Positions 1 through 22,492 of a stretch of DNA of 22,492 bases are shown piece after piece (within the stretch, counting starts at the first letter, position 1; every line of letters begins with the position of its first letter). The notes below the pieces were generated by a model. The model searched no databases, was not told the DNA's origin, and saw only the letters and a list, made by a program, of their open reading frames with translations. The stretch comes from a virus, in IMG/VR virus record IMGVR_UViG_3300009159_000349, positions 1-22,492 of that record; one strand, 5' to 3'. Both the position numbers and the translations under genes were made by a program.

Positions 1-555
1 CATGGCACCGTGATCCTTGCAGAACTCGCCAGTCTTTAAATCGCCCCGCCAGTGGCTCTTGCCCACCAAGAATGGCTTTTTGTTTTTGTCCAAGCGATAG
101 TGATAGAACGGTGGAAAGTTCAGTCTGATATGTGTGTCATCTAACACAGGTACTTCCAACAACTCGGCTAATGGATCATCTTCTTGTGGTTCATCCAGCT
201 CAAAGATATCTTCAATCTTGCGCTTTTTGGCCTGTGCTTTGGGCACTTTTTTGGGTGCCATGGGTATGTGTTCCCAGCAGGTGATACGAAACACCAAGTC
301 AGTGTTAGCAATCTTTTTGGGATCAACTTCCTGTCCAGTTTCGCGCTTCAAACGGTCAGCACGATTGCGTCTAGCTTCGGCAATGGTGCGCATGTTGATT
401 TTGGCCAAGCTGGGCAGGATAATGTCGTATTGATGATCTTTAGCAGGATCTCTAAAAGAACAGTAGGTGTTCTTGCTTAGGTGTATTTCTTTTAATATGT
501 CTCGATTGTTTAGATAGTTTACTTTTGTTGGGGGTTTTGTAGTGGCTAGTGACAC
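1..555 (-). CDS. gp55-like late sigma factor, N-terminal part (runs off left edge)
   Basis: The frame is open for 185 codons from a GTG at 555-553 to the window edge, so the C-terminus is missing. GTG is chosen because an AGGAG (567-563) lies 7 nt upstream and an in-frame TAA lies just beyond it. Residues 12-24 (VNYLNNRDILKEI) resemble the start of T4 gp55 (YNYVNNKELLQAI), the phage sigma factor that directs host RNA polymerase to late promoters. Residues 25-185 have no T4 counterpart that I can align. They include a basic stretch (62-71), a Lys-rich run (102-113), an acidic run (115-127) and a C-terminal HWRGDLKTGEF segment. T4 gp55 is only 185 aa in total, so this protein would carry a large insertion. 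The polymerase- and clamp-contacting regions would lie off the window. It could also be an unrelated conserved phage protein. Frame and start are secure; the function is a moderate inference. Confidence 0.55.
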   Translation of the reverse strand, partial: MSLATTKPPTKVNYLNNRDILKEIHLSKNTYCSFRDPAKDHQYDIILPSLAKINMRTIAEARRNRADRLKRETGQEVDPKKIANTDLVFRITCWEHIPMAPKKVPKAQAKKRKIEDIFELDEPQEDDPLAELLEVPVLDDTHIRLNFPPFYHYRLDKNKKPFLVGKSHWRGDLKTGEFCKDHGAM

Positions 556-2114: not shown

Positions 2115-2416
2115 TGGCCGCTAACTATACCACTGCCAGTGCCTACTATACCACTGGGTATCAGCAATTTTATTTGGATGTCATGGTCAATCGACCCATA
2201 CCCAAATTGCCAGATGATTTGCAGTTCAAGATCAACCTTACCTATCAATATAGACCAGATCTCTTGGCCAATGATCTTTATGAAAACAGTAATTTGTGGT
2301 GGGTATTTTATCAACGCAATCCTAATACCTTGACTGCACCACCGTTTGATTTCAAAGCAGAAACCATCATATATCTGCCTAAAATTACAACACTAAATTC
2401 TGTATTGGGAATTTAA
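2114..2416 (+). CDS. 53: baseplate wedge protein gp53
   Basis: 100 aa, about half the length of T4 gp53 (196 aa). The core YQYRPDLLANDLYENSNLWWVFYQRNP (residues 47-73), followed by FDF and a short hydrophobic strand ending YLP, is the hallmark of the gp53 family: a LysM-like unit in which the protein names a start state, has LWW, and ends with an I.LP strand. In T4, gp53 clamps neighbouring wedges together around the hub. The ATG overlaps the stop of the upstream gene as TAATG, which suggests translational coupling; a purine run AAAGGTGG lies at 2097-2104. The next gene starts two bases after its stop. Confidence 0.85.
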   Translation: MAANYTTASAYYTTGYQQFYLDVMVNRPIPKLPDDLQFKINLTYQYRPDLLANDLYENSNLWWVFYQRNPNTLTAPPFDFKAETIIYLPKITTLNSVLGI

Positions 2417-2418
2417 GT

Positions 2419-5485: not shown

Positions 5486-7957
5486 ATGGCAGATAATGTA
5501 CAACGCAGTAGAGGAATACCAAACAACTTCAAGTTTGATCGCGGAGGTTATCCTGCGCAGTTTGGACCTTTTATTGGCATAGTCACAAACAATGTGGACG
5601 CCACACGCAGCGGTCGATTGCAGGTTTACATTGATGCATTCAATGACACAGTTCAATCGGGTACCAACCGTGGTGAACCCAAGCTAAACGATCCCACACT
5701 GTGGACCACAATCAATTACTGCCCACCATTTTATGGTTCTACACCATTCAGCGGAACCAGCACCGGTACCGGCGGTTATGCGCCCGGTAATAGACAAAGT
5801 TACGGCATGTGGTTTACACCTCCCGACATTGGTGTGTCTGTGTTGTGTTTTTTTGCCAACGGTGATCGTACACAGGGCTACTATCTAGGAGTGGTTCCAG
5901 AACAAGGTATCAATCACATGATACCTGCAATTGGTGCAGTAAAAAACTATGTGGTCAACAACAACACACAGAATGTGACCTTTGCTAATGTAGCTCAGTT
6001 GCCGGTTACTGAAATCAATGATGGCAATCCTGGTATAAACAACAGTCCAAGATATTTTGCTGAACCCAAACCTGTGCACAGTGTGCAAGCGGCAATATTT
6101 TATCAACAAGGCTTAGACACAGATCCCATTCGCGGTCCTATAACCAGCAGCAGCCAGCGTGAAAGTCCAAGCACTGTGTACGGCATCAGCACACCCGGTA
6201 CTGCTATCTATCAAGGTGGCATGGATCCTAAAACCATTCGAGGACAGTTAGAACGCGGCGAGATAAATCCTCAAGATGTAGCAGTAATTGGTCGCAAAGG
6301 CGGTCATACTTTTGTGATGGATGATGGTGATCTTGATGGTAACGATGCTTTAGTTCGTATACGCACAGCCAAAGGCCATCAGATTACCATGAGCGATAAT
6401 GGCGATTGCTTTTACATTACCAATGCCAATGGACAGACATGGATAGAACTGGGTCGAGAAGGCACAGTTGATATATTTTCTACCAACAGTGTGAATATCC
6501 GCACTCAAGGCACAATCAACATGCACGCCGACAAAGACATCAACATATTTGCCGGCGGTACATTCAATGTTCGTAGTCAAGGTGATATGCATATTGAAAC
6601 TCCTAGATCAATGTCTCTTAATGCTACTACTGAACTTTCTGTGTACAGTAAGAGTACCATTGGCATACGCAGTGATGGTACGCTGGGATTACAAAGCAAC
6701 ACAGGTAACTGGAACAGTTCCGGCACATTAAATCTGCAAGGTAGTACAATTAATCTCAACGGCGGCGGAGCAGGATCAGTGGCTGCTGTGCAAGACCTTA
6801 AACTCAATCGCCTGGCAGATACTAGATTAGAAACCACAGGATGGACTGTGGTTCCACAGAGCCTGGAAACCATTGTGACTCGGGCACCTACACATGAACC
6901 TTATCCTTATCATGGTCAAGGGGTCAATGCCACTGCCAGCCTAAACACAGCCAATGCCACAACTATCACAACAACCACAACAACCACAGTTGGTAATGTG
7001 ACCACTACCACTGCCAACACAGTGACCACTACTGGCAGCACCACAGTCAATGCCGCGACCAAACAAGCAGTAGCTCGTGCAGCCGCTACTCAACCCATCG
7101 ACAAAGTTGTCGCTAACAACATTTTGTCGGAACCATTGGCCAATAGAGGTATAGGACCCAACAACCTATTGAATCAACAGTTGGTGACCACACTTACAGC
7201 CCAAGCTGCCTCTGCGGCGTCTAGACCAGCATTTGATCAAGTAGGTAATCTTTTACCGGGTTGGCAATACAACACCAACAATGTACCGGTGTATGTGGGC
7301 AACGACTTGGCCAAGTATGGAGTGGGAATTTATGGGCAAAGTGTGGCAGCACTGACATCTCTAGGATTTCTAAAACCAGGCACACTGGATCTTATCACAG
7401 ATCCCAGTCTTACTGCCACAGTGCTTAACACATCCAGTGTGTGGTCTGGGCAGTATGGTGTCGGCAGTTTGACCGATTACTTGAATAGTTCAGAACTACA
7501 AAATCTATCGCAAGTGGCCTTGATGGACGGCGCATATCAGGGACTTGTCAACGCTCAAATTTTAACCGGTGCAGAAGACGCAACCACAGTGGCAGCATTG
7601 GTGCAACCTGCTGCAAATCTTGGTGTCACCAATGTTGCTGCTTGGGTCAACGGTACAGCTGATGCTACAACAGCAGCGCAGGTTGAAACCGCCAGCAGAC
7701 AAGGAATTTATGCAACAGATTTTTACAATACCTACTTCACACAGTTGTTCCCTGCTGTGGATCCGGGTGGCTTTGTGAACACTGCTCAACGTACACAATT
7801 GGATCAACTGGTCGCAGCCATTATCAGCAATCCCAAAGTACCTAGTATTAACTTTTCTGACGCCAGTGCAGCAGAATTAGCAGGCAATGCAGCCGCAGTC
7901 ACGGTCACAGGTGAAGGTACTTTTAGGCTTAATCCTTACCGTGGACAAACATCGTAA
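5486..7957 (+). CDS. 5: baseplate central spike, gp5-like, without lysozyme domain
   Basis: 823 aa. Residues 26-150 are an OB-fold as in gp5/VgrG: FGPFIGIVTNNVDATRSGRLQVYI, then MWFTPPDIGVSVLCFFANGD and GYYLGVV. Residues 186-240 hold PRYFAEPKPVHSVQ, QQGLDTDPIRGPI and TVYGISTPG. Residues 270-430 form a trimeric beta-helix spike with short repeats (GTVDIFSTNSVNIRT, GTINMHADKDINIF, GTFNVRSQGDMHI, GTLNLQGSTINLNGG). T4 gp5 has a lysozyme domain between OB-fold and helix; here that space (150-270) shows no lysozyme-like sequence. Unlike T4 gp5, which ends at the helix tip, this protein goes on for about 390 residues: a Thr-rich linker (481-525), then a seemingly globular domain (600-780). AGGA at 5471-5474 precedes the ATG by 11 nt. 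It is the membrane-piercing tip by family. Confidence 0.85.
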   Translation: MADNVQRSRGIPNNFKFDRGGYPAQFGPFIGIVTNNVDATRSGRLQVYIDAFNDTVQSGTNRGEPKLNDPTLWTTINYCPPFYGSTPFSGTSTGTGGYAPGNRQSYGMWFTPPDIGVSVLCFFANGDRTQGYYLGVVPEQGINHMIPAIGAVKNYVVNNNTQNVTFANVAQLPVTEINDGNPGINNSPRYFAEPKPVHSVQAAIFYQQGLDTDPIRGPITSSSQRESPSTVYGISTPGTAIYQGGMDPKTIRGQLERGEINPQDVAVIGRKGGHTFVMDDGDLDGNDALVRIRTAKGHQITMSDNGDCFYITNANGQTWIELGREGTVDIFSTNSVNIRTQGTINMHADKDINIFAGGTFNVRSQGDMHIETPRSMSLNATTELSVYSKSTIGIRSDGTLGLQSNTGNWNSSGTLNLQGSTINLNGGGAGSVAAVQDLKLNRLADTRLETTGWTVVPQSLETIVTRAPTHEPYPYHGQGVNATASLNTANATTITTTTTTTVGNVTTTTANTVTTTGSTTVNAATKQAVARAAATQPIDKVVANNILSEPLANRGIGPNNLLNQQLVTTLTAQAASAASRPAFDQVGNLLPGWQYNTNNVPVYVGNDLAKYGVGIYGQSVAALTSLGFLKPGTLDLITDPSLTATVLNTSSVWSGQYGVGSLTDYLNSSELQNLSQVALMDGAYQGLVNAQILTGAEDATTVAALVQPAANLGVTNVAAWVNGTADATTAAQVETASRQGIYATDFYNTYFTQLFPAVDPGGFVNTAQRTQLDQLVAAIISNPKVPSINFSDASAAELAGNAAAVTVTGEGTFRLNPYRGQTS
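6926..7060 (+). repeat. Thr-rich linker (ACA/ACC codon runs) in the spike protein
   Basis: Residues about 481-525 of the spike protein are mostly Thr with Asn, Val and Ala, coded by runs of ACA, ACC and ACT. This separates the beta-helix from the C-terminal domain and is likely an extended linker. It is a coding simple-sequence tract, not an array with spacers. Confidence 0.7.
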
Positions 7958-7967: not shown

Positions 7968-8345
7968 ATGGCTACCTTTATTGGATTTAACACACAAAAC
8001 CAACCCAAGAAATTTACCTTGGTGGATCAGGAATTAATCAAACGCGATTTGCTGAATGCATTTAACATACGCCAAGGTCAACTGGTAGGCAGGCCCGAAG
8101 TTGGAACCAACATTTGGGACAATTTGTTTGAAAATCAATCTGATCAGTTGCGCACAGTGCTAACGAACGAAATACAACGAGTGGTGGGATTAGATCCCAG
8201 AATTCAGTTGACCAGTTTAGAGATATTTCCTCAACAAAATGGCATTCTTTTGCAGGTAGGACTGACATTTGTGCCCAGTACCGATGCGCAGCGACTGGCC
8301 TTGTTCTTTGATCAGCAAACGCGCAGCGCCAGCTATGTCACTTAA
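7968..8345 (+). CDS. 25: baseplate wedge protein gp25 (sheath initiator)
   Basis: 125 aa, against 132 in T4. The family core is complete: LIKRDLLNAF near residue 24, GRPEVGTNIWDNLFE (41-55), then LTNEIQRVVGLDPRIQLTSLEIF (65-87) and a final strand pair. The DPR triplet stands where the family has its conserved EPR motif, so Glu is replaced by Asp. gp25 sits at the top of the wedge, contacts gp6 and gp53, and offers the beta-strand on which sheath polymerisation starts. It follows the spike gene by 10 bases and lies 45 bases before gp6, the usual pairing. Confidence 0.9.
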   Translation: MATFIGFNTQNQPKKFTLVDQELIKRDLLNAFNIRQGQLVGRPEVGTNIWDNLFENQSDQLRTVLTNEIQRVVGLDPRIQLTSLEIFPQQNGILLQVGLTFVPSTDAQRLALFFDQQTRSASYVT

Positions 8346-8390: not shown

Positions 8391-11300
8391 ATGGCCAAAT
8401 CCACTAGACAAACTGCAATTTTCGGGGTAGAAGACTGGAGAAGAATCTACCAAACCTACCGCGAAGCTGACTTTCAGAGCTATGACTTTGAAACCTTGCG
8501 CAAGAGCTTTGTTGACTATTTGCGCCAATACTACCCAGAAACATTCAATGACTACATTGAATCTAGCGAATTTATTGCCTTGCTGGACCTCATGGCATTT
8601 ATGGGGCAAGCCATGGCGTTTAGAAATGATCTAAACACCAGAGAAAACTACTTAGACACAGCCGAACGCCGTGATTCAGTGGTTCGTCTTGCCAACCTTG
8701 TGAGCTACACTCCCAAGCGTAACATTGCTGCGTCAGGCTACTTAAAAGTTTTTTCGGTACAAACCACAGAGAATGTCACAGACATCAACGGTATTAACCT
8801 AGCCAATGTCACTGTGAATTGGGCCGATCCTACCAACCCCAATTGGCAAGAACAATTTACTGCTATCATAAACGCCAGCCTGGTAGATAGCCAGCGTGTG
8901 GGCCGTCCAGGTAATCGAACCACAATTTTGGGTGTACGCACCGACCAGTACACTGTTAATCTAGTGCCAGGATTCTTGCCGGTGATACCTTATACTGCCA
9001 CCATTGATGGTATCAGCATGCCTTTCGAAGTGGTGTCAAGCACTGCTGTCAACAAAGAATTTGTTTACGAACCTAGTCCTAGACCCAACGGTGAGTTTAA
9101 TGTGTTGTTTCGCAATGACCAACTGGGATTTGAAAGCGCCAACACTGGATATTTCTTTTATTTCAAACAAGGCACATTACAAAATCAAGATTTCAACTTG
9201 GCCGAGCGTGTGAGCAATCGCACTGTGGATATCAACATTGAGGGCGTTAACAACACTGATCGTTGGCTGTACCAACTTGACAACGTGGGCAGTATTTCCA
9301 AGGAGTGGACCTATGTGCCTAGTGTGTATGCTGCAGCGGCCGAACAACAAATCACAAGTCCACGAACAGTTTATAGCACTAGCAGTAGAACCAACGACCA
9401 AATCACATTGAATTTTGGTGATGGTGTGTTCTCGGCCATACCAGTGGGTCAGTTCCGTTGTTATGTGCGTTCATCAAATGGTTTGCAATACATTATCAAT
9501 CCAGAAGAGATGCAGGCTGTGCAAGTGCCTATCAGCTATGTGAGCCGTACAGGTCAGTTACAGACTATTACTTTTACCTGCGGTCTTACTACACCAGTTA
9601 GCAATTCTCAGCCACGAGAAACCATTGCTGAAATCAAGCAACGTGCACCAGCTCGTTACTACACACAGAATCGCATGGTCAACGGTGAAGATTACACCAA
9701 CTTTCCGTTCACTGCTTACAATTCAATTATCAAAAGCGCAGCATTGAATCGTAGTGCCATTGGTACAAGTAGATATCTTGAACTGGTGGATCCCACCAAC
9801 AAGTATTCAAGCACAAACATTTTTGCCAGCGACGGTGCATTGTATCAAAGTCTTACATTGCCTACCTTCTTGTTTACTTTTGCTACCACCAATGAGATCA
9901 ACAATGTTATTGTGAACCAAGTACAACCTGTGTTGGCTGGTTATGAAATGCAACAGTTTTACTATGGTTACTTTCCACGTGTGAGCCTAAGCACATTGCC
10001 AACCACTTGGCATCAAAGCACCACACTGGCCAATGAGACCACTGGATATTTTGTCAATGCTCTGGGTAATCCTGTGAGCATTGGTACTTACAGCAGCAGT
10101 AATCTCAAATACATTGTGGTGGGAAGTTTGGTAAAATTTGTTCCACCCGCTGGTTATTTCTTTGACGCCAACAACAGATTGGTAGCAGGCCTACCAACCC
10201 AACCCAATGAAAAATTAATTATCTGGGCCAGTCCCACTGGCGTGGTATTAGATGGTACCAATCAGGGACAGGGCAACTTTAGCAATGGCGTGGGACCTGT
10301 GACACTGAACAACTTTGTACCCACCGGTGCCATAGCCAGTGAAGTAATACCGCTGTTTGTGACCGACTTGCCCACTGCATTTGAGCAAAGCATGGCCGAG
10401 CAAGTGTTGCTTCAACGCAATTTTGGCATTGGCTATGACAGCCTGGGCACAATTACCGGTACCCCAGGTACCTGGTACTTGATCACCAGTACCAACCTAG
10501 ATCAAAACGCTGCCTGGAGTCAGGTCAATGCTGGCAGCACAGCAGGTGTTAACAACGATGCTAGTTGGCTAGTACAATTTGTCACAGATGGTGTGACTTA
10601 CACAGTGACATCGCGAGCCTTGGATTACTTTTTTGGCAGTGTGATACAAACAAGATTTTTCTACTATGGTGGCGAACCAATTTTTGACAGCAGAACAGGC
10701 ACTGTGATTCGCGACTATGTAAATGTGTTGAAAACCAACAGCAGACCCGACAGTGCATTGCCTCAAAACACAGATATTCGACTGCGCATTGCAGGACAGC
10801 CTGTGCTAAGTGATGGTTATGTGGATGATTATCAAGTGCTAGTCACATTTGAAGATTCAGACAGCGACGGTGTGCCTGATGATCCCGACTTCTTCAACGA
10901 GATTGTGGCACCCAACGTCAACCCCACACAGAAACTGGTGTTTTTCCAACGCATAGTAGATTTTGATAACTTACAACGCTATGTGCTGATTGACAGTGGT
11001 ATTGTTAATTCCGACTACGCAACTAAAAATGATATCGAACTGGTCAAGTTACAGTATGTGTCAGGACAGATTTTTTATGCCTACAATCAGACTACCACAA
11101 TAGATAACTATACATTCACCGGCACCTTTTATCAACTGTTGATTGCCACAGATGGATCCAGATACCTACAGTTGCTCACAGACTACATTGCGCGAACTGG
11201 TCGTCAAGACCTAGCTTTTCAATATCGTCACAACAGTCCGTTGACCAGCAGAATTGATCCTGCTACCACAAACATCATTGACGTTTATGTGGTCACACAA

Positions 11301-11843
11301 GAATACTATATTCAATATCAAAATTACATCAGAGATGTCACAGGAACTGTGCCAGAACCCACACCACCTACCATTGATGAACTAAACACTGCCTATAGCG
11401 GATTACAAGATTATAAAATGTTAAGCGACACAATGATTCTAAATTCTGTGCAGTTCAAACCATTGTTTGGTAACAAAGCCCAACCAGATCTTCGTGCCAC
11501 TATCAAAGTCATCAAAGCCTTTGACACCACTGTCACAGACAGCGAAATCAAAAACTTGGTAGTCACTGCTATGAATGATTATTTTACCATTGACAAATGG
11601 GACTTTGGCGCTACATTTTATTTTTCGGAACTGGCAGCATATATCCATCAACAAATAGGCACTGTGGTCAGTTCAGTTGTATTGGTACCAATCAATCCTC
11701 AAAAGAGTTTTGGTGATCTATACGAAATTAGATCCGAACCCAATCAAATATTTGTCAACGCTGCCAATGTAAACAACGTTGAAGTCATCAGTGCGCTGAC
11801 CAGCACTAATATCCGTACCGCACCTGGTAGTGGAGTAATTTAA
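8391..11843 (+). CDS. 6: baseplate wedge protein gp6 (J-like), enlarged
   Basis: 1150 aa, against 660 in T4 gp6. The N-terminus is strongly diagnostic: IYQTYREADFQSYDFETLRK (19-38), YLRQYYPETFNDYIESSEF, then DLMAFMGQAMAFRNDLNTRENYLDTAERRDSVVRLANLVSYTPKRNIAASGYL, as in gp6 of marine T4-like phages. The C-terminal third (1030-1150: DLRATIKVIKAFDTTVTDSEI, FYFSELAAYIHQQIG, SFGDLYEIRSEPNQIF) is the conserved part shared with P2 gpJ-type wedge proteins. The middle (about 500-850) is extra and holds beta-rich stretches plus an acidic loop DSDSDGVPDDPD at 822-833. gp6 dimers form the inner iris ring that opens on contraction. Its TAA overlaps the next ATG by one base (TAATG). Confidence 0.9.
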   Translation: MAKSTRQTAIFGVEDWRRIYQTYREADFQSYDFETLRKSFVDYLRQYYPETFNDYIESSEFIALLDLMAFMGQAMAFRNDLNTRENYLDTAERRDSVVRLANLVSYTPKRNIAASGYLKVFSVQTTENVTDINGINLANVTVNWADPTNPNWQEQFTAIINASLVDSQRVGRPGNRTTILGVRTDQYTVNLVPGFLPVIPYTATIDGISMPFEVVSSTAVNKEFVYEPSPRPNGEFNVLFRNDQLGFESANTGYFFYFKQGTLQNQDFNLAERVSNRTVDINIEGVNNTDRWLYQLDNVGSISKEWTYVPSVYAAAAEQQITSPRTVYSTSSRTNDQITLNFGDGVFSAIPVGQFRCYVRSSNGLQYIINPEEMQAVQVPISYVSRTGQLQTITFTCGLTTPVSNSQPRETIAEIKQRAPARYYTQNRMVNGEDYTNFPFTAYNSIIKSAALNRSAIGTSRYLELVDPTNKYSSTNIFASDGALYQSLTLPTFLFTFATTNEINNVIVNQVQPVLAGYEMQQFYYGYFPRVSLSTLPTTWHQSTTLANETTGYFVNALGNPVSIGTYSSSNLKYIVVGSLVKFVPPAGYFFDANNRLVAGLPTQPNEKLIIWASPTGVVLDGTNQGQGNFSNGVGPVTLNNFVPTGAIASEVIPLFVTDLPTAFEQSMAEQVLLQRNFGIGYDSLGTITGTPGTWYLITSTNLDQNAAWSQVNAGSTAGVNNDASWLVQFVTDGVTYTVTSRALDYFFGSVIQTRFFYYGGEPIFDSRTGTVIRDYVNVLKTNSRPDSALPQNTDIRLRIAGQPVLSDGYVDDYQVLVTFEDSDSDGVPDDPDFFNEIVAPNVNPTQKLVFFQRIVDFDNLQRYVLIDSGIVNSDYATKNDIELVKLQYVSGQIFYAYNQTTTIDNYTFTGTFYQLLIATDGSRYLQLLTDYIARTGRQDLAFQYRHNSPLTSRIDPATTNIIDVYVVTQEYYIQYQNYIRDVTGTVPEPTPPTIDELNTAYSGLQDYKMLSDTMILNSVQFKPLFGNKAQPDLRATIKVIKAFDTTVTDSEIKNLVVTAMNDYFTIDKWDFGATFYFSELAAYIHQQIGTVVSSVVLVPINPQKSFGDLYEIRSEPNQIFVNAANVNNVEVISALTSTNIRTAPGSGVI
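10854..10889 (+). other. candidate calcium-binding loop in gp6
   Basis: Codons for DSDSDGVPDDPD (residues 822-833) give the spacing D-x-D-x-D-G-x-x-D-D, as in thrombospondin type 3 and EF-hand-like calcium loops. It sits between two hydrophobic strands (YQVLVTF and KLVFFQRIV). Metal binding is not shown by the sequence alone. Confidence 0.4.
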
Positions 11844-14800
11844 TGGCCAGTGTACGCACAGTAGAACTACTGCCAGAGATTTTTCAGACTGACACCAACA
11901 AGATGGTGCTGGGCGCCACACTGGATCAGTTGACACAAGAGCCTAACTTCAAAACCATTCAAGGTTATGTGGGACGCAGTGTGGGTCCTGGGGTAAATCC
12001 CAATGACAAGTATGTAACCGAACCCACTGCCACCAGAACAGATTATCAACTAGAACCCGGCGTGATCAGCCTTGATCCAGCCAATGTTCAAAGTATAACC
12101 AATGCCATAACCTATCCTGGCATGATTGATGCATTGTCTTTGCAAGGCGCCAATACCACCAAAGCAGATAGACTGTTTACCAGTAATTACTACACCTGGG
12201 ATCCGTTTATTGATTTTGACAAGATGGTCAACTACAGTCAATACTACTGGTTGCCTTCTGGTCCAGATGCAGTGGATGTGTTTGCCGGCACAGTGCCGCT
12301 AACTGACAACTTTGTGGTCACACGAGCCAACGGTGTGTACACATTTTCTGGTGTGGAAGGAGATAACCCCACACTGACCTTGGTTCGTCAAGGCAACTAC
12401 ACATTTCAAGTGGCACAAAATGCCACAGAAACTGTAAACTTTAGAGTTACCAACCGAAGCAATAATGCTTTCTTGATTGACGGTATTGCCAACCCAACAT
12501 TGACCTTGGTACGTGGCAATACCTATGTGTTTAATTTGTTGTTGACTGGCGACTATAAGTTTACCATTCAATCAACTCCGGCATTCAATGTTAACAATGA
12601 TTATAATGATGGTGTGAGCCGTAACAGTAGCAGTGCAGGATTACTGACATTTACAGTGCCTCAAGATGCACCCGACACCTTGTATTACAGCAGCAAAAAT
12701 GAATTTTTAATGGCCGGTACATTTAATATTGTCAACGGTACTCCGGGCACAGGTCCTGGATTTTGGATTCAAACAGATCCAGGTGTCAATGGTCGATTGC
12801 CTTATGCTCCCAACATCAGCAGCAGAGATGTGTTGGGTGTGATCAATAATGGTGAAGATCTTGGCACAGTAACTTTCAATGTGCCCTTGGCCACAGCACA
12901 GAGTTTTTACTACAATCTCACTGACATAGGTAGTGTAGATTTGATAGTGGCTGATTTGCAGTTTGATCAGATCAACAATGTGTTTGTGGATCAATTTCTT
13001 GCTGAGTATGGCGGCATTGATGGTATTAGAAATCTCAATGGTCGTACCTTGGTTTTTCTCAATCAAATTCCCGATGCTCAGGACGGTGGTTGGCTAGTTA
13101 CCACACAGTTTGACCCATTAGCACAAGACTCGGCCAACAACGGCTTGACTGGTAGCTATGATACTACCACATTTGATCAAACCACACCCATAGACGATGT
13201 AGCCCTGCGCTACAGTGTGTGGCAGATTCAATATGTACAGGCCGTGGGCGGCAGTTATTACATGAAGCTGGTCAGTGTTGAGGCGGTCAACAACCTGGAA
13301 AAATTCAACATATTGTATGGTGATGTTTACGCCAGCACCAATTGGTATAAAAATTCCTCTGGATATTTTGAACAGATTCCGCTGTTGACTGCTGCAAAAA
13401 ATTTACTGTACTATCAAGACGGTACTGATCCTGAGATTTTTGGTCAAATAAGACTGATTGACCAAGTGGACGCCGGAGTTCTTAATGTTGACGAAATTAT
13501 CGGCAAAAAGAACTATACCAGTCCCAATGGAGTGGCATTTACCAATGGTCTCAAGGTACAATTTATTGGTCAAGTCACGCCTTCAAGTTATGCTGGCAAC
13601 CAGTATTATGTAGAGGGTGTGGGCGTAGCAATCAAATTGCTGCCGGTGACCAATTATGTGACCCCTGAGACCTATACCGAGAGTGCAACTGTTCCATTTG
13701 ATAGTACACCGTTTGATGTAGGCAATTTTGATGCCAGTTTGAATCAACCTCTGGTACCAGACTACCTGACCATCAACAGAGCCAGTCCTGATCTCAATGC
13801 TTGGACACGCAGTAACCGATGGTTTCACGTTGATGTGATCAACGCAGCAGCTCAGTACAACAACATCCTTCCTGTGTTGGACAATGCTTACAGAGCCAAA
13901 CGACCTATTCTTGAATATCGTGCTGGTACCAGATTGTACGACTTTGGTACCGAATCTAAACAACCAGTTGACATAATTGACTTTTCTGTGACAGATGCAT
14001 TCAGCACCATTGAAGGCAGCACTGGTTATGGCACAGACGGATACAACTTTACAGATGGTACTCGTGTTATCTTTGCCCGAGATGCTGACCCAGATGTACG
14101 AGACAAAATTTATGTGGTGCAGTTTATAACACCAGATACTGTGCCACCCCTGATTGCAGAACCTATTATTAACTTGACTCCTGCCACTGATGCTGATGTA
14201 CTATTTGACAACACTGTGGTCTGTCTCAGCGGTCAGACATTGCAAGGAAAAAGTTTTTGGTACGACGGCGTAAATTGGATCAAAGCACAACAAAAAACCG
14301 GCGTAAATCAAGCACCGTTGTTTAATGTTTATGACTCAGCGGGTATAAGCCTCAGTGATGCCGTAAAGTATCCCAGCTCAACATTTGTGGGCAGTAAACT
14401 GTTTTCCTATGCCATAAACGCCAGTGGTGTCACTGACCCTGTGTTGGGTTTTGCGCTACGTTATCTCAGTTTGGCCAATGTGGGCGACATCGTATTTGAC
14501 AACAATCTTTACACTGAAACATTTACCTATGTCAAAAATAAAATAACAACCACCGACAACATCAGCATAGGTATTGTGCGCCAATATGCATCACGCACTG
14601 TGTTTGAAAAAGAACTGGGATGGCAACCAGCCATAACCAAAGGTTACACACGACAACAATTCAAATTCACCTATGATGGTCGTCCGTTGCAGTTAGACAT
14701 AGCAGTTTTACCCAATGGTGCCATTCCAAGTGTGCAGGTGTTTGTGGGATCAGTTTTTGTAAGCCCTGGTGATTACACAGTGTCCACTACCAGCAATTCC

Positions 14801-17800
14801 ACCACAATCACACTTAACAACGTTTACATTCCGGGCGATGTGATTGAAGTGGTAGTGATCAGTGATCAAGCCAGCAGTGTGGGATTTTATCAGATTCCCA
14901 GTAACTTAGAAAATAATCCCTTAAACGTTAATAGTCCGTATTTTACACTTGGTACAACAAGAGCTCATTATGACACTATGGGTCAAAACTTGTTGGCCCT
15001 GGTGGGACCAATCAACGGTGCTAATAATAGTAGAGACCTAGGTAACATTGGTCGTTATGGCGAAAACATTGTGCAACAAAGTTCGCCACTGACCTTGGCT
15101 GGTTATTTCATGCGCAGTGCAGATTATAACATTTTTGCTGCCCTGAGCTTTAACGATCGAGAGTACACCAAATTCAAAACACAGTTGTTGGACACAGTTG
15201 TTCAAAACGACTACATTAACATGACTGTGCCAGAAATTCTCAACAGTGCCATGGCTGAAATAGTAGAAGGGCGCAGCAGTCTCAATCCATTCTACTGGAG
15301 TGACATGGTACCCACTGGTAGTGTGTTTGCACAGAGCAGCACTACAATTACACCCATCAGCACTAATGTATTTTCCACAGTTCAAACCTATAACTTTACC
15401 AGCTCAAATTATCTTGGACTGTTGGTTTATGTAAATGACATACTGTTACAAATCAATTACGAATACACTGTGGCTGTGGATGCACCTAGCCTGACCATTA
15501 CTGCTCCACTGGCAGTGGGCGATGTGGTTCGTATTGAAGAATACAATCCCACATATGGTAACTATGTGCCCAACACACCTACTAAGATGGGTTTGTATCC
15601 AGCATATCGTCCCAGAATTTATGTTGATGATACCTATGTTGAAGCTAGATTGGTAATTCAGGGTCATGATGGCAGTATCACCGTGGCCTTTGGAGACATT
15701 AGAGATGAGATCCTGTTGGAATTTGAAACAAGAATTTTCAATAACTTAAAGATCAAATCTGCTATTCCATTACCAGTGGTAGAGGTAGTGCCAGGACAAT
15801 TTAGAACCACAGACTATTCACTGAATGAAATCAACAGCATTGAATCCTCTAGTTTCTTGAGCTGGATTGGTTGGAACAATTTAGATTACAAAACACAGAC
15901 TTACTTTGCCAACAACCAATTTACATGGAATTACAGTGCAGCCGGCAACAAACTCACCGGAGACAACACCAGAAGCGAAGAGCCACTGCTGGGTGCATGG
16001 CGCGGTATTTATAATTATTTTTACGACACCGATTCGCCACAAAGCACTCCATGGCAACTGATTGGCTTTAGTGAAAAGCCCACTTGGTGGAATGATGTGT
16101 ACGGTCCAGGACCATACACTAGCGATAACTTGGTGTTGTGGGACGACATGGCACTAGGGTTGGTGGCAGATCCTATTGTACCTTATATTCGTCCAGAGTA
16201 TGCAAGACCCAACTTACAACAGGTCATTCCCACAGGCACAGAAGGTCAACTGCTGAGTCCATTTGAAAGTGTGGTAGGCTTGTATGACAGTACCCAATGG
16301 CAAAAGAGTTGGGTGTTTGGTGACAACGGTCCCGTAGAAGCATCGTGGCGCAAGAGTTCCAGTTATCCATTTGCCATCATGCGCATGTTGGCCTTGACCA
16401 GACCTGCAGAATTTTTCAGTTTGTTTGCTGATCGCGACCTTTACAAATACAACACTGAATTTGGTCAGTACCTATACAATGATCGTTACAGACTGGATGC
16501 CAATGGTGTTGAGGTTTATGGCAACGGTGTCAGCAAAGCCAGTTATATCAACTGGATTGTGGATTACAACCAACTGTCAGGATTGAACAGCACCGACCTG
16601 CTCACAGCCGACTTGAAGAATCTTGATGTGCGTCTGTGCTACCGTATGGCATCATTTACTGACAAACAGTATCTCAACATCTACACTGAAAAATCCAGTC
16701 CCAATAGTACAAACAGCAGCTTGTTGTTACCGCCAGAAAGTTACAAGTTACTGGTCTACAAAAACCAACCATTTGATCGTGTGGGCTACAGTGCGGTTAC
16801 TGTGCAAAGATCGGGCACTGGTTATGCTGTGATTGGTTATAGTTTGCAAAATCCCTATTTCAATATCTTGATCAGTAACCCCAGCGGCAAAAAGCAACGA
16901 ATCAGTGCCGGTGGTTCCACTGTACTGGTTCCTATAGAGTATACCAAGAACGTGGCTCAAGTGCCCTATGGCTATGTGTTTGCCAATGCCACCATGGTTG
17001 TGGATTTCTTGTTGAGCTATGGTGCACTGTTGGCCAGACAAGGATTGATGTTCGATGGTGTAGAAAATGGCTATGTGCTAAACTGGAATCAAATGGCACA
17101 AGAGTTCTTGTACTGGGATAACCAAGGTTGGGCAGATGGTGCCATTATCTGTTTGAATCCAGCTGCAGCCATACTCAGCGTGAGCCGCCCACAAAGTATT
17201 GTGGATTCGGTCACTGTGATGACTCCTGAAAGTCTAGTGCTAGATCAGAATCGTCAGGTGGTGCCAGCACGTGATTTGGTTATTACGCGCCTGGGCAACG
17301 ACTTCAGTGTGCGCACAGTGACCAATCAAATTATTTCGTTCCTGGATGTTAAATTTACCAGTTATGAAACCATGGTGGTCTTAGACAATGTCAGCATATT
17401 CAATGACTTGATTTACAATCCTGCTACCAGTGCCCGTCAAGGTAGAATTTATGTGCGTGCCACAGTCAGTGCGGAATGGAACGGTCAACTAGATGCCCAA
17501 GGCTTCATACTGAACGATCTTAACACCATCAAGGAATGGCAGCCCTATAAGAAGTACACCAAAGGCGAAATCGTTCTTTACAAGCGAAACTATTGGAGTG
17601 CACAAGACATTGTGCAGCCCAGTGCCGAATTCAACAGCTCGCAGTGGGTCAAGAGTGACTACACAGCCATACAAGGTGGCTTGTTGGCCAACCTGCCCAA
17701 CAAGAGCAACGAACTGGCCAACAGCTACGACACATTCAATGCCAACTTTGCAGTGGATCAAAATCTCTTTGCCTATGGCTTGATTGGATTTAGACCCAGA

Positions 17801-20800
17801 CAGTATATGAGTGCCTTGGACCTCAGCGACACCAGTCAGGTCAATGTGTATCAGCAGTTTATCAAAGACAAAGGCACAATACTCAGCGTTGACTTGTTTG
17901 GTAATGCCAATCTTGGCAAAGAAGTTGCTGAATACTATGTGCGTGAAAACTGGGCAATCTTACAGGCCACTTATGGTGCCAATGCCAACAAAACATTTAT
18001 TGAATTTCAGTTAAACCAGGCCTTACTAAGAGCAGATCCGTCAGTGTATCAAGTAATTGAACCTGCTCAACCCAGCTTGGCAGATCAAACTGTTTTATAC
18101 AGCAAGGTATGGCGCACTGGTCGCCCACTGTCGTCGCCCAATATCTTTACCACAATCTATCCAGAGATCACAGACACAGCTTTACCCAGTGCAGGTTATG
18201 TGAACATAGATGATGTAGACATCACTGTGTTTAATTTGGCCAGCAACTTGAATCTTGATGCAGCCACTCTTGAAACTGTAGGCATAGGCACCACTATATG
18301 GGCAGCCAAGATAAACGATTATGATTGGGGTATCTACCGCTGCAGCCCAGTACCAGGTCGTATTGAATCTGTGACCAGCAACCTAAATGGCACCAGCAGC
18401 GTGGTATTCAGTCAAACACATGGACTATCAGTTGGCGCTGTGGTCATATTAAAGTATGTGGATACCCAAGTTGATGGCGTGTATCGAGTGCTGGCAGTAC
18501 CCTCTATTAATACAATTACCATTGACCTAACATTTACCAATACTGTAGTGGCACAAGGTCTGGCCTTTTTCTTACAGACACAACGAGTGGCCCAGGCCAG
18601 CGATGTGATCAACTTGCCTTATGCCCAAAGCCTGGTTCCTGGTGCCAAAGCCTGGGTTGATAACAACGGATCTGGACATTGGGAAGTACTAGAAAAACAA
18701 GCACCCTTTGTGGAAGGTGCAGTATTGAGCGCCACGGTTCCTGTGTCCAACAGCGGCTTTGGATCTAGTGTTGCTCAAGGACAAAACAATCTTTCGGCCT
18801 TGATTGGTTCGCCCACCGACGGTGCTGCTGGCGCGGTTTATACATGGTTACGGGATCAAACCAATCAGTACATTCAAACCAACATATTGACATTAGGAAC
18901 CACAAGCACAGCAGGTTATGGTAATGCAGTCAAAATTGGCACCAATACATGGGCAGCGGCCGGAGCCAGTGCCAGCAACAGCAGCCAAGGTTATGCGGCA
19001 GTAATCTATCGCCCAGCACAAAGTAACGTTTTTGATCAACGACAACTATTGGTCGCACCAGATCAAAATTTTGGAGCTGGTGAATTTGGTTATGATGTTG
19101 CTATCAGCAGAGATGAACGCTGGATGTACATTGGTGCACCTGGCAACAACACTGTGTATGCCTATGGTCGTGTAGACATTGATGAAAATCAATATGTGAC
19201 CTATGTGGGTGATGGCTCAACCGTAGTTTATAATTTCTCAGATTCTATTTCAATTACCAATGGCGAGCAACTGACTGTGGTGGTCAACAATGTGGTGCAG
19301 GTATATGGCATTGATTATACAACTACAAGTACCAACGTGGTGTTTGTAACAGCACCAGTACAGTCCTTACCAATTTTGATTAGACGCAGAACATCGTATC
19401 AACTGGATAAAAACACCTACTACTCAATCTCGCAAAACGCCACTTCTGGTGGAGGCAGTGGAGCCAAGTTTACAGTGACCAATCTCCGTGGTGTATACAC
19501 CACAACATTAGTGTCAGGTGGTACTGGTTATGCCAATGGCAATACTGTCACAATCTATGGTGCAAACATAGGTGGCGCAACACCTGCCAACAATCTTGTT
19601 ATAACTGTGACTGCAGTTGATGGCGGTGCAATCACTGCATTTACTACCGCAGGCAGTGGTATCAGCAATACCAGCATCTTTACTATCACTCCTTACTTGG
19701 CCACAGTGAGCGATATATTCTCGTTTACTGTGACAGTGAATGGAGACTTACAAAGACCCTTCCAAGACTACAGTTTCAACACAGACAGTGCGCTGTATGC
19801 AGATGAAATTGTGTTTAACAATGTGCCTGCAGCAGGAGCAAACATTGTTGTAACTGCACTGAGTTATTTCCAGTTTGTGCAAGCAATCACAGTGTCAGGA
19901 TTGAGCAACACTGCTAGATTTGGCAACAGCGTGAGCACCACCACAGATGGTCGTCAAGTGTTGATTGGTGCGCCCAGTGACAGCACTACCAACTATGCCA
20001 ACAGCGGTGCAGTGTATGCATTTGATCGCAGTGTGATTCGTTACATTGTGAGTGATCCCACTACATTAACCTATGCATTGCCTGCGGGATGGCAAGAACC
20101 AGTGTCAGTGGTGTTAAACAACGAATTCTTAGTCAACAGCGCACAATTCCTTGATGGTACATTCAGTGTGGTAGGTAACAATGTGGTGCTGTCTAGTTCA
20201 CTGACCTTGGCTGTGGGCGACATTATTGAAATTGAAAGCAATATATTCCGTCAGGTACAAAAGTTTGCTGCTGGCTCACCAACTCAAGCAGCAGGTTTTG
20301 GCACTGTAATCAACGTGTGCCCCACAAATTGTAGCGTATATGCCAGCTCGCCATTGGATGGGTCAGTGTTGCCTGATGCAGGTAGCGTAGACCGCAGAAC
20401 CAACCAGGCAAGATTGTATGGAGTGATAACATCCACTGTATCCAATGCTGCGCTGACCCCGGGCAACACAATTCGCATCAATAACACACCGGTTACAGTA
20501 CCCAATGCTCCAGATAATACTGTGGATGGCCTGGCCGCTGCTATCATAGCAGCAGGAATACCCAATGTTACTGCCACAGTCAGCAACGGTCTTTTGACCA
20601 TCAGTGTGATCAATCTAGCTGCGGCCGATGAATTCAACCGACTCAGCGTGTTACCAGGAGTGTCGGGCACAGCGTTTGCAGATCTAGGTTTTGAACCCTA
20701 TGCATTTGCTCAAACCATTGTAAGTCCTAATCCTGTGGATTTTGCCTACTTTGGTCAGAGTCTCAACATCGATAGTAGTGCATTAACCTTGGTAGTAGGT

Positions 20801-22492
20801 GCACCAGGCGGCACCACTGCAATACCTACCACATTCGACAATGGCACTACCTATTTTGATGCACACAGCACAAACTTCTTCAAGTACATTGTTCAAGGTG
20901 GTGCTGTGTACACTTACGATTACTTGCCCAGTGTCAACAGTAGTGTGTCTAATCCGGGCAAGTTTGTATTTGGCCAGGAAGTGTATGATAACTCCATAGT
21001 GCTGGGAGACCAGTGGGGAGCCGCAGTCAATTACACCAGTGGCCGACTACTTGTGGGTGCACCAGGCAGTGATCTGGGTGACAGCAGTCTAAACTATGGT
21101 CGTGTGGCCAGCTTTGATAACCCTACACTGCGTCCGGCCTGGACTCCAATCCATGTACAGCAACCAGTGGTAGATGTTTATTTGATCAATTCTGTGTTTA
21201 TGTTTGATCGACTGCAGAGTTCGGCCACTGAATTCTTTGACTGGTTTGATCCACTACAAGGTAAGATCCTTGGCGCTGCCAGACAGAATATAAATTACAT
21301 TGGTGCTGTGGATCCTGCACAATACAACACTGGTATCATTAATAACAATGGTAACTTCTGGGGCGAAGCCAATCTTGGACAGATTTGGTGGGATACTAAC
21401 AGTGTGCGATTCATTGATCCCAATCAAGACAATCTGGCCTACGCTGCACGCCGTTGGGGACAGTTGTTCCCAGGCAGCACAGTAGAAGTGTATCAGTGGG
21501 TGCAGAGCACAGTACCACCTAGTGCCTACACCGGTCCGGGAACCCCACGTGATACAACCTCATACACTCAAGTTTCTGGCCTAGACAGCAACGGTATAAT
21601 CAGCACCTTCTATTATTTCTGGGCCAAGGACATTACCACAGTACAAACTACTCTGGGTAAAACACTCAGTACCACCGGTATTGCCAGATACATTGAAGAA
21701 CCCAGAAGCAGTGGCATACCATATGTGGCCTTCCTTGATGCCAGCACTGTGGCCATCTACAATGGCTTGCCATATATCAGCGCACAAGATACCATCTTGC
21801 ATGTCGACTACGAGCAGCAGGCAACCATTAATAACATTCACCAAGAATTTGAGTTAATTGCAGCCGACGTTGCTGACAGTTTCTTAAGCAGTAACCTGTA
21901 TAGAAAACTTCAAGACAGTTTCTGTGGTGTAGACACAGCCGGTGCTGTGGTGCCAGATCCAAACCTAAGTCCAGCAGAACGCATTGGTGTACAGTTCCGC
22001 CCACGCCAGAGCATGTTTGTCAACAGATTCTTAGCACTGCAGAACTACCTAGAGCGAGCCAATGCTATCTTGTTGCAATATCCAATAGTGGAAAACCGCA
22101 GCCTGAGCTTGCTGAACAGCAGAGAGCCCGAACCCACTGCAGCCAGTGGCGCTTGGAACCTGCGAGTAGCCAATCTAGAAGAACTCAGTTTTCAAAATCT
22201 CTACGCTGTGCCCATTGGATATCGTTATCTAGTGGTCAGCGACAGCAGTCAAGATGGTCTATGGACCATTTACAGTGTGGAACAAGTTAATTCTGTGCGT
22301 TACACCGAACTAGTACGCATACAAAATTATGACACACGTAACTATTGGTATTATACCACTTGGTACTTGCCTGGATACAACAAGAGTCAAAAACCAATAA
22401 CACAGGTTCCCAACTATGCAAGTCTTGCGACCCTGAATGTTCCGGTGGGTTCTAGTGTCAAAGTCACTGCCAATGGTCAAGGCAAGTTTGAA
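11843..22492 (+). CDS. giant baseplate protein in the gp7 position, propeller-bearing (runs off right edge)
   Basis: One frame is open for 3550 codons from ATG 11843 to the edge with no stop, so the protein exceeds about 380 kDa and its C-terminus is unseen. GGAG (11832-11835) lies 7 nt upstream and TAATG couples it to gp6. Residues 1-160 (LLPEIFQTDTNK, ATLDQL, GYVGRSVG, RLFTSNYYTWDPFIDFDKMVNYSQYYWLPSGP) and a W-rich body (about 1270-1900: GHDGSITVAFGDIRDEILLE, WQLIGFSEKPTWWNDVYG, YPFAIMRMLALTRPAEFF) look like a conserved wedge scaffold. Added modules: cupredoxin-like tandem (164-302), beta adaptors (937, 1180, 2454, 2622, 2737), a THGLSVGAVV module (2173-2234), seven FG-GAP motifs (2305-3093), then a Tyr/Trp-rich C-terminal part. 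Position after gp6 suggests a gp7 equivalent, although I cannot align it to T4 gp7 (1032 aa). A receptor-contacting fibre-like role for the inserts is inference. Confidence 0.75.
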   Translation, partial: MASVRTVELLPEIFQTDTNKMVLGATLDQLTQEPNFKTIQGYVGRSVGPGVNPNDKYVTEPTATRTDYQLEPGVISLDPANVQSITNAITYPGMIDALSLQGANTTKADRLFTSNYYTWDPFIDFDKMVNYSQYYWLPSGPDAVDVFAGTVPLTDNFVVTRANGVYTFSGVEGDNPTLTLVRQGNYTFQVAQNATETVNFRVTNRSNNAFLIDGIANPTLTLVRGNTYVFNLLLTGDYKFTIQSTPAFNVNNDYNDGVSRNSSSAGLLTFTVPQDAPDTLYYSSKNEFLMAGTFNIVNGTPGTGPGFWIQTDPGVNGRLPYAPNISSRDVLGVINNGEDLGTVTFNVPLATAQSFYYNLTDIGSVDLIVADLQFDQINNVFVDQFLAEYGGIDGIRNLNGRTLVFLNQIPDAQDGGWLVTTQFDPLAQDSANNGLTGSYDTTTFDQTTPIDDVALRYSVWQIQYVQAVGGSYYMKLVSVEAVNNLEKFNILYGDVYASTNWYKNSSGYFEQIPLLTAAKNLLYYQDGTDPEIFGQIRLIDQVDAGVLNVDEIIGKKNYTSPNGVAFTNGLKVQFIGQVTPSSYAGNQYYVEGVGVAIKLLPVTNYVTPETYTESATVPFDSTPFDVGNFDASLNQPLVPDYLTINRASPDLNAWTRSNRWFHVDVINAAAQYNNILPVLDNAYRAKRPILEYRAGTRLYDFGTESKQPVDIIDFSVTDAFSTIEGSTGYGTDGYNFTDGTRVIFARDADPDVRDKIYVVQFITPDTVPPLIAEPIINLTPATDADVLFDNTVVCLSGQTLQGKSFWYDGVNWIKAQQKTGVNQAPLFNVYDSAGISLSDAVKYPSSTFVGSKLFSYAINASGVTDPVLGFALRYLSLANVGDIVFDNNLYTETFTYVKNKITTTDNISIGIVRQYASRTVFEKELGWQPAITKGYTRQQFKFTYDGRPLQLDIAVLPNGAIPSVQVFVGSVFVSPGDYTVSTTSNSTTITLNNVYIPGDVIEVVVISDQASSVGFYQIPSNLENNPLNVNSPYFTLGTTRAHYDTMGQNLLALVGPINGANNSRDLGNIGRYGENIVQQSSPLTLAGYFMRSADYNIFAALSFNDREYTKFKTQLLDTVVQNDYINMTVPEILNSAMAEIVEGRSSLNPFYWSDMVPTGSVFAQSSTTITPISTNVFSTVQTYNFTSSNYLGLLVYVNDILLQINYEYTVAVDAPSLTITAPLAVGDVVRIEEYNPTYGNYVPNTPTKMGLYPAYRPRIYVDDTYVEARLVIQGHDGSITVAFGDIRDEILLEFETRIFNNLKIKSAIPLPVVEVVPGQFRTTDYSLNEINSIESSSFLSWIGWNNLDYKTQTYFANNQFTWNYSAAGNKLTGDNTRSEEPLLGAWRGIYNYFYDTDSPQSTPWQLIGFSEKPTWWNDVYGPGPYTSDNLVLWDDMALGLVADPIVPYIRPEYARPNLQQVIPTGTEGQLLSPFESVVGLYDSTQWQKSWVFGDNGPVEASWRKSSSYPFAIMRMLALTRPAEFFSLFADRDLYKYNTEFGQYLYNDRYRLDANGVEVYGNGVSKASYINWIVDYNQLSGLNSTDLLTADLKNLDVRLCYRMASFTDKQYLNIYTEKSSPNSTNSSLLLPPESYKLLVYKNQPFDRVGYSAVTVQRSGTGYAVIGYSLQNPYFNILISNPSGKKQRISAGGSTVLVPIEYTKNVAQVPYGYVFANATMVVDFLLSYGALLARQGLMFDGVENGYVLNWNQMAQEFLYWDNQGWADGAIICLNPAAAILSVSRPQSIVDSVTVMTPESLVLDQNRQVVPARDLVITRLGNDFSVRTVTNQIISFLDVKFTSYETMVVLDNVSIFNDLIYNPATSARQGRIYVRATVSAEWNGQLDAQGFILNDLNTIKEWQPYKKYTKGEIVLYKRNYWSAQDIVQPSAEFNSSQWVKSDYTAIQGGLLANLPNKSNELANSYDTFNANFAVDQNLFAYGLIGFRPRQYMSALDLSDTSQVNVYQQFIKDKGTILSVDLFGNANLGKEVAEYYVRENWAILQATYGANANKTFIEFQLNQALLRADPSVYQVIEPAQPSLADQTVLYSKVWRTGRPLSSPNIFTTIYPEITDTALPSAGYVNIDDVDITVFNLASNLNLDAATLETVGIGTTIWAAKINDYDWGIYRCSPVPGRIESVTSNLNGTSSVVFSQTHGLSVGAVVILKYVDTQVDGVYRVLAVPSINTITIDLTFTNTVVAQGLAFFLQTQRVAQASDVINLPYAQSLVPGAKAWVDNNGSGHWEVLEKQAPFVEGAVLSATVPVSNSGFGSSVAQGQNNLSALIGSPTDGAAGAVYTWLRDQTNQYIQTNILTLGTTSTAGYGNAVKIGTNTWAAAGASASNSSQGYAAVIYRPAQSNVFDQRQLLVAPDQNFGAGEFGYDVAISRDERWMYIGAPGNNTVYAYGRVDIDENQYVTYVGDGSTVVYNFSDSISITNGEQLTVVVNNVVQVYGIDYTTTSTNVVFVTAPVQSLPILIRRRTSYQLDKNTYYSISQNATSGGGSGAKFTVTNLRGVYTTTLVSGGTGYANGNTVTIYGANIGGATPANNLVITVTAVDGGAITAFTTAGSGISNTSIFTITPYLATVSDIFSFTVTVNGDLQRPFQDYSFNTDSALYADEIVFNNVPAAGANIVVTALSYFQFVQAITVSGLSNTARFGNSVSTTTDGRQVLIGAPSDSTTNYANSGAVYAFDRSVIRYIVSDPTTLTYALPAGWQEPVSVVLNNEFLVNSAQFLDGTFSVVGNNVVLSSSLTLAVGDIIEIESNIFRQVQKFAAGSPTQAAGFGTVINVCPTNCSVYASSPLDGSVLPDAGSVDRRTNQARLYGVITSTVSNAALTPGNTIRINNTPVTVPNAPDNTVDGLAAAIIAAGIPNVTATVSNGLLTISVINLAAADEFNRLSVLPGVSGTAFADLGFEPYAFAQTIVSPNPVDFAYFGQSLNIDSSALTLVVGAPGGTTAIPTTFDNGTTYFDAHSTNFFKYIVQGGAVYTYDYLPSVNSSVSNPGKFVFGQEVYDNSIVLGDQWGAAVNYTSGRLLVGAPGSDLGDSSLNYGRVASFDNPTLRPAWTPIHVQQPVVDVYLINSVFMFDRLQSSATEFFDWFDPLQGKILGAARQNINYIGAVDPAQYNTGIINNNGNFWGEANLGQIWWDTNSVRFIDPNQDNLAYAARRWGQLFPGSTVEVYQWVQSTVPPSAYTGPGTPRDTTSYTQVSGLDSNGIISTFYYFWAKDITTVQTTLGKTLSTTGIARYIEEPRSSGIPYVAFLDASTVAIYNGLPYISAQDTILHVDYEQQATINNIHQEFELIAADVADSFLSSNLYRKLQDSFCGVDTAGAVVPDPNLSPAERIGVQFRPRQSMFVNRFLALQNYLERANAILLQYPIVENRSLSLLNSREPEPTAASGAWNLRVANLEELSFQNLYAVPIGYRYLVVSDSSQDGLWTIYSVEQVNSVRYTELVRIQNYDTRNYWYYTTWYLPGYNKSQKPITQVPNYASLATLNVPVGSSVKVTANGQGKFE
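12332..12748 (+). other. tandem cupredoxin-like segment with lost metal ligands
   Basis: Residues 164-302 of the giant protein. NPTLTLVR occurs twice (175 and 217), 42 residues apart, each followed by a Y.F strand, as in cupredoxin-like domains of marine phage and bacterial proteins. The second copy ends LTFTVPQDAPDTLYYSSKNE FLMAG. Typical members read LYYYC..H..MGG there; here Ser stands for Cys and Glu for His, with only Met 290 kept. The early His (GHPF) is also absent (TGDYKF). The fold seems kept and the copper site lost. Confidence 0.5.
14651..14866 (+). repeat. beta adaptor module, copy 1
   Basis: Residues 937-1008 of the giant protein: RQQFKFTYDGRPL, VQVFVGSVFVSPGDYTVS, TTITLNNVYIPGDVIEVVVIS. 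The shared pattern is F.F, then V.VNn.....DYTv, then ItL....aGD.IeI. Such units are common linkers or fibre attachment modules in phage structural proteins. Confidence 0.5.
15380..15547 (+). repeat. beta adaptor module, copy 2
   Basis: Residues 1180-1235: VQTYNFTSSNYLGLLVYVND, INYEYTVAVDAPSLTI, then LAVGDVVRIEEYN. It has the same V.VND / YEYTV / LtI / GDVVRI order as copy 1. Confidence 0.5.
19202..19402 (+). repeat. beta adaptor module, copy 3 (between propeller blades 3 and 4)
   Basis: Residues 2454-2520: YVGDGSTVVYNF, LTVVVNNVVQVYGIDYTT, NVVFVTAPVQSLPILIRRR. The GDGST..Y.F opening followed by V.VNN..Q..G.DYT is the classic form of this module. It sits inside the propeller sequence. Confidence 0.55.
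19430..19669 (+). other. Gly-rich beta module inserted in the propeller
   Basis: Residues 2530-2609: SGGGSGAKFTVTNLRG, VSGGTGYANGNTVTIYGANI, LVITVTAVDGGAITAFT. The G.GY..G..VTI.G pattern followed by an ITV..V.GG strand is a small beta module seen in phage structural proteins. Function unknown. Confidence 0.4.
19706..19870 (+). repeat. beta adaptor module, copy 4 (between blades 3 and 4)
   Basis: Residues 2622-2676: VSDIFSFTVTVNGDLQRPFQ, DYSFN, EIVFNNVPAAGANIVVTAL. It has the same V.VNG / DYSF / IvF....aGa.IvV order, a little more divergent. Confidence 0.45.
20051..20245 (+). repeat. beta adaptor module, copy 5 (between blades 4 and 5)
   Basis: Residues 2737-2801: SDPTTLTYALPAGWQEPVSV, VLNNEFLVN, NNVVLSSSLTLAVGDIIEIES. 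The V.LNNE and LaVGDIIEI ends match the other copies; the middle differs. Confidence 0.45.
20423..20701 (+). other. beta-alpha-beta insert between propeller blades 5 and 6
   Basis: Residues 2861-2953: GNTIRINNTPVTVPNA, NTVDGLAAAIIAAGIPNVTA, NGLLTISVINLAA, LSVLPGVSGTAFADLGF. Order: strand with IRIN..PVTVP, helix, strand with LTI, then a LGF end. Similar units occur repeatedly in phage tail and flagellin-type proteins. Function unknown. Confidence 0.4.

Follow-up and report, generated by a model that had tools for sequence, protein, structure and literature searches.

A predicted seven-bladed FG-GAP propeller with inserted domains as an optional cassette of a giant phage baseplate-cluster protein

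Seven FG-GAP-like motifs in a giant open reading frame of a phage baseplate gene cluster raise the question of whether they form one integrin-like propeller, how its blades accommodate the long interruptions between some of the motifs, and what such a propeller would contact. The window (the whole stretch of DNA analysed) is a 22,492-base viral contig fragment.

The giant protein and its gene neighbourhood

The window encodes, in this order (coordinates on the plus strand), a gp53-like baseplate wedge protein (2114..2416), a large virion protein, a gp5-like baseplate hub protein (5486..7957), a gp25-like wedge protein (7968..8345), a gp6-like wedge protein (8391..11843) and, directly after it, a giant ORF (11843..22492) of at least 3550 residues whose reading frame is still open at the window end. 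The giant ORF occupies the position of T4 gene 7, which follows gene 6 in the T4 order (53, 5, 6, 7). A late-transcription sigma factor gene (phrog_12791; 1-555, minus strand) runs off the window start. The gene psbA was not found in 12 related contigs, which consequently give no sign of a cyanobacterial host; MAG contigs carrying related genes may be mis-binned phage.

The giant protein matches the profile of a jumbo-phage giant structural protein (phrog_10938) across its core (E=1.9e-274), and a relative 92% identical to it (L001) has about 4670 residues. The conserved core (residues 925-2091; 14615..18115, plus strand) and a conserved segment C-terminal to the propeller (residues 3115-3300; 21185..21742, plus strand) are also present in cultured jumbo phages (Pseudomonas PA5oct-like, Rak2-like, Atu_ph07, SCTP-2 and a Vibrio phage), all of them without the propeller. 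The family of this carrier protein includes at least 596 coding stretches in viral contigs when searched with a profile; as single queries against the same contigs, the Deifobo core had no match and the Atu_ph07 core matched the Atu_ph07 genome alone. The N-terminal region (residues ~150-640; about 12290-13760) is largely missing from the cultured jumbo relatives, as are almost all of residues ~151-550 of L001, and it is another lineage-specific insertion.

The predicted structure of the core (107 natural sequences; pLDDT 86.9, pTM 0.82) had no fold match in the PDB with E of 0.001 or below, and no known baseplate fold was matched. At the sequence level, neither the whole protein nor the profiles of the core and the propeller matched a PDB entry, apart from a weak match of the core to an Anabaena injection-system protein (E=0.074). 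A short CBM5/12-like (chitin-binding) stretch was assigned by eye at residues 1899-1939 (17537-17659); chitin-binding domains and enzymes acting on chitin make up several of the local PDB fold matches of the core, and sub-threshold CBM_5_12 matches occur elsewhere in relatives.

The baseplate-gene setting that had been proposed for the giant ORF holds, and propeller-less homologues of the carrier are virion proteins according to published mass spectrometry, all of it from homologues without the propeller. CBB_236 was detected in virions with 21 peptides (PMC5259590), and phAPEC6 gp245 (382 kDa, 17 peptides), whose position and size point to a homologue of the carrier, is listed directly after the baseplate wedge protein gp244 (PMC7247149). 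The carrier protein itself is probably located in the baseplate, where it would be present in six copies if it behaves like T4 gp7.

T4 gp7 had also been proposed for comparison, as a protein with a propeller domain of its own, and this comparison found no support. The hhalign probability of T4 gp7 against the core and the propeller was at most 0.3%; T4 gp7, gp8, gp9, gp10, gp11, gp5 and gp53 did not match the family profile; and gp7, although its structure is in the PDB, does not appear among the 50 best listed fold matches of the propeller or among those of the core. T4 gp7 contains fn3 and gp7-specific Pfam domains and no FG-GAP match, and the Gp7 Pfam domains were not found in the window protein. 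Consequently, the carrier is gp7-like by position only. The shared location after gene 6 would suit a propeller that is the direct counterpart of a gp7 domain, descended from a common T4-like baseplate protein; the results above and the closer homologues of the carrier, which have no propeller, make this origin very improbable.

The predicted propeller and its inserted domains

The FG-GAP motifs begin with FG, YG or WG at residues 2306, 2359, 2415, 2693, 2819, 2970 and 3058 (spacings of 53, 56, 278, 126, 151 and 88 residues); all seven of the original prediction are present, its residue numbers being one too low. The strict motif occurs exactly seven times in the 3550-residue protein, always inside the propeller region. 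Composition shuffles of the whole protein (500) gave a mean of 1.45 motifs and a maximum of 5, and shuffles of the region alone (2000) a mean of 0.6 and a maximum of 5. Among 60 relatives, conservation of the FG glycine is complete or reaches at least 90% in every blade. Pfam FG-GAP_2 (PF14312) matched three stretches (E=2.6e-12, 47.2 bits, curated cut-off 23), and scored 84 bits in a relative with a bare propeller; PF01839 (FG-GAP), the model originally named for this search, had no match in the window and a sub-threshold one in a relative.

AlphaFold2 was used to model residues 2276-3112 from 60 natural sequences, without templates. The model obtained (pLDDT 91.7, pTM 0.90) has seven blades of four strands each (A-B-C-D): strand A after FG, strand B ending in GAP, then strands C and D. 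In a Foldseek search, the heads of integrins alpha-5 and alpha-V were the best PDB matches (probability 1.00, lowest E 1.1e-8); integrin heads were the top match and many of the next ones, with target TM-scores of up to 0.59 against closed integrin propellers and, because the inserts disturb the superposition, rmsd values of 12-18 A for most of them. The region is strongly predicted to be a seven-bladed FG-GAP beta-propeller of integrin-alpha type, in agreement with the single integrin-like propeller first suggested. A chance origin of the seven motifs was ruled out by the shuffles together with the structure prediction.

The propeller cassette comprises residues ~2286-3098 (18698..21136, edges approximate; this and the following features are on the plus strand). 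Blades 1 (residues 2306-2349; 18758..18889), 2 (residues 2359-2403; 18917..19051) and 6 (residues 2970-3047; 20750..20983, with a 32-residue B-C loop) run from strand A to strand D, and blade 7 provides strands A-C (residues 3058-3092; 21014..21118). Its strand D is probably, from the strand register, the N-terminal strand HWEVLEK (residues 2279-2285; 18677..18697), which is kept also in proteins without the propeller and which would close the ring. The closing of the propeller ring by an N-terminal strand is the usual arrangement.

The other three blades are split between strands C and D. In blade 3, insert 1 (residues 2445-2672; 19175..19858; about 228 residues) separates strands A-C (residues 2415-2444; 19085..19174) from strand D (residues 2673-2682; 19859..19888); in blade 4, insert 2 (residues 2732-2798; 20036..20236; 67 residues) lies between strands A-C (residues 2693-2731; 19919..20035) and strand D (residues 2799-2808; 20237..20266); and in blade 5, insert 3 (residues 2855-2952; 20405..20698; 98 residues) lies between strands A-C (residues 2819-2854; 20297..20404) and strand D (residues 2953-2959; 20699..20719). 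Blade 5 also contains a CxxxC pair between strands A and B (residues 2826-2830; 20318-20332) that is at least 90% conserved and may form a disulfide or a metal site. The original prediction was right that the blades are not contiguous, and the predicted structure bears out its whole domains in propeller loops; its insert sizes (about 250 and 85-115 residues) were roughly correct, but it had placed the interruptions between whole blades rather than within them.

Insert 1 is composed of three modules: i1a (beta-sandwich), i1b (GGTGY module) and i1c (beta-sandwich); insert 2 is a beta-sandwich module (i2), and insert 3 an alpha/beta module (i3) which we take to resemble flagellin hook-IN type motifs. 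Three of these five modules (i1a, i1c and i2) are copies of one beta-sandwich domain that recurs elsewhere in the protein: the hhalign probability was 96.8% between i1a and i1c and 90.1% between i1a and i2, and further i1a copies were found in L001 (residues 4268-4340, 4574-4641 and 1194-1236), with the probability falling from 93 to 35%. By profile comparison, i1b and i3 are distinct from the i1a-type beta-sandwich.

The phage propeller shares its seven FG-GAP blades with the integrin alpha N-terminal propeller (alpha-5 and alpha-V heads), but the identity is about 10%, the protein is not a cell-surface receptor, and a DxDxDG-type calcium loop is missing (neither D-x-[DNS]-x-[DNS]-G nor [DN]-x-[DN]-G occurs in the propeller region). 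The integrin alpha-I domain is a precedent for a whole domain in a propeller loop, so domain insertion into a propeller is not new in itself; in the phage protein, the inserts lie within blades, between strands C and D, at three sites rather than one. With FG-GAP_2 proteins (PF14312) the window protein shares a repeat unit above the curated cut-off, but its repeats are interrupted by domains, and its propeller in turn sits inside a giant tail-cluster protein. Several viral FG-GAP propellers in BFVD have predicted structures matching the model: A0A6J5L8L4 of an uncultured Caudovirales phage (19% identity), which may belong to the same family as the window propeller, H6WG31 of cyanophage S-TIM5, A0A2L0UZX4 of Atu_ph07, and FG-GAP proteins of giant viruses.

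Other phage propellers differ from this one. In the K1F endosialidase, a beta-barrel is inserted in the propeller. The beta-barrel associated with the propeller of this tailspike binds host sugar (PMC12632334), but the propeller is a catalytic sialidase and not FG-GAP. PMC6115969 describes a five-bladed (phi11 gp45), a six-bladed (PRD1 P2) and a seven-bladed (phiKZ gp131C) phage propeller, two of them in receptor-binding proteins; as described there, none is an FG-GAP cassette in a giant baseplate-cluster protein. A literature search for FG-GAP in phage baseplates returned nothing relevant.

The propeller site across relatives

The propeller is located in a beta-hairpin loop of the conserved giant protein, and this site was surveyed in 161 relatives whose sequences allowed both flanks to be located. 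No blade units were detected at the site in 31 of them (19 around cultured jumbo phages and 12 diverse). The Rak2-like giant structural proteins (CBB_236, phAPEC6 gp245, 121Q gp582) share the homologous core and the gene order with the window protein, but have only 201-206 residues between the flanking conserved segments and no propeller. Bare seven-unit propellers (e.g. L178, L174, L165) occupy 705-730 residues between the flanks, their blades being ~60 residues apart, and in several diverse relatives the seven units follow one another at ~52-80 residues; the decorated propellers of the window's group occupy 939-1192 residues. In L101, L176 and Deifobo (L081), which lack the cassette, the hairpin around its insertion point can still be recognised.

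Seven units were counted in 74 of the 78 close relatives and in 20 of the 64 diverse ones. Because relatives of the window served to train the blade profile, the count is supported independently only by the matches in diverse relatives; these counts come from the first profile, as an iterated one drifted and was discarded. The modules vary from one relative to another: insert 1 is missing in L180 and i1b in L023 and L060, L075 has a second i1b copy at insert site 2, and L038, L042, L045 and L054 have an extra insertion in blade 1. The propeller is an optional cassette with modules shuffled between its loops, and the blade number stays at seven while the modules come and go.

Other arrangements were observed at the site. 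Seven relatives (L131, L141, L144, L152, L157, L166, L172) show two blade units, ~740-860 residues and two more units; the stretch in between is either a very large insert within the propeller or contains blades that have diverged beyond detection. In five others (L082, which is Atu_ph07, L102, L103, L104, L113), 528-1515 residues without recognisable blades lie at the cassette site (1515 between the flanks in Atu_ph07), which may be a different type of insert in this socket. In L178, a sub-threshold match to the endosialidase beta-barrel lies just before the propeller (residues 111-157 of the translated stretch 5539-7700).

A tblastn search of 50,697 phage genomes with the window propeller gave no match, so isolates would not have revealed it. 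When a relative with a bare propeller was the query, two weak matches were obtained in the phage genomes, to Sinorhizobium phage Phosso and Synechococcus phage S-SCSM2R; the Phosso match begins ~570 residues into a large gene, perhaps another gene than the carrier.

The widely varying sizes at the site, and the structural tolerance of insertions in a hairpin loop, would be expected if the propeller merely filled space passively, or were a neutral inserted domain kept by descent, and bound nothing specifically. Seven blades and invariant glycines across distant phages argue instead for selection on a folded propeller, and we consider a neutral insertion improbable.

Possible roles of the propeller and its modules

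In most relatives the propeller is 45-60% identical, a degree of conservation compatible with structural and binding roles alike. The blades and the A-B hairpins are well conserved, and insert 1 has the lowest identities in the protein (0.33-0.41, L001 residues 2451-2600), compared with 0.41-0.63 elsewhere in the propeller and, for the most part, 0.5-0.75 in the core. This combination of constrained blades and hairpins with a variable insert 1 fits a rigid display platform at the baseplate periphery whose variable modules make surface or capsule contacts, a proposal to which we give about an even chance. The blades would hold the shape of the platform; the variable modules would leave from one face of the propeller and make weak surface or capsule contacts, which would help to orient the baseplate before irreversible binding. 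Contact of the propeller with the host surface, as originally suggested, is plausible, and the propeller and its modules may have a binding role.

The same conserved blades and hairpins would also be expected of a docking platform, with the propeller and modules binding other tail proteins (fibres, neighbouring wedges) and never the host. Insert 3 and the loops of blade 6 are conserved, unlike a typical receptor-binding tip, and the beta-sandwich module recurs in the carrier itself, which is consistent with protein-protein contacts; against this, insert 1 is the most variable part, and the many relatives that are bare or propeller-less at the site indicate that the propeller is not needed for the basic machine. 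We regard docking as a credible explanation, though one with less than an even chance; docking of tail proteins is nearly as likely as host-surface contact.

Returning to the display platform, we tentatively extend it, with rather less than even confidence, to a two-level combinatorial host-contact system: a hairpin socket that is empty, bare, decorated or filled with long bladeless sequence, and propeller C-D loops that take interchangeable binding modules. The nested, optional and modular arrangement, which the original prediction did not include, is the interesting part, and a propeller cassette with further domains in its own loops is a new variation on the known FG-GAP propellers. A fixed insertion site has been identified at which an integrin-like propeller has been gained or lost whole; the site occurs in nature in the empty, the bare and the decorated state, which makes it a good system for studying how domains are nested without breaking a machine part. 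The giant protein illustrates clearly how exchangeable domains can be nested in a component of the phage particle, and its propeller is a concrete candidate for a surface-contact element of uncultured phages.
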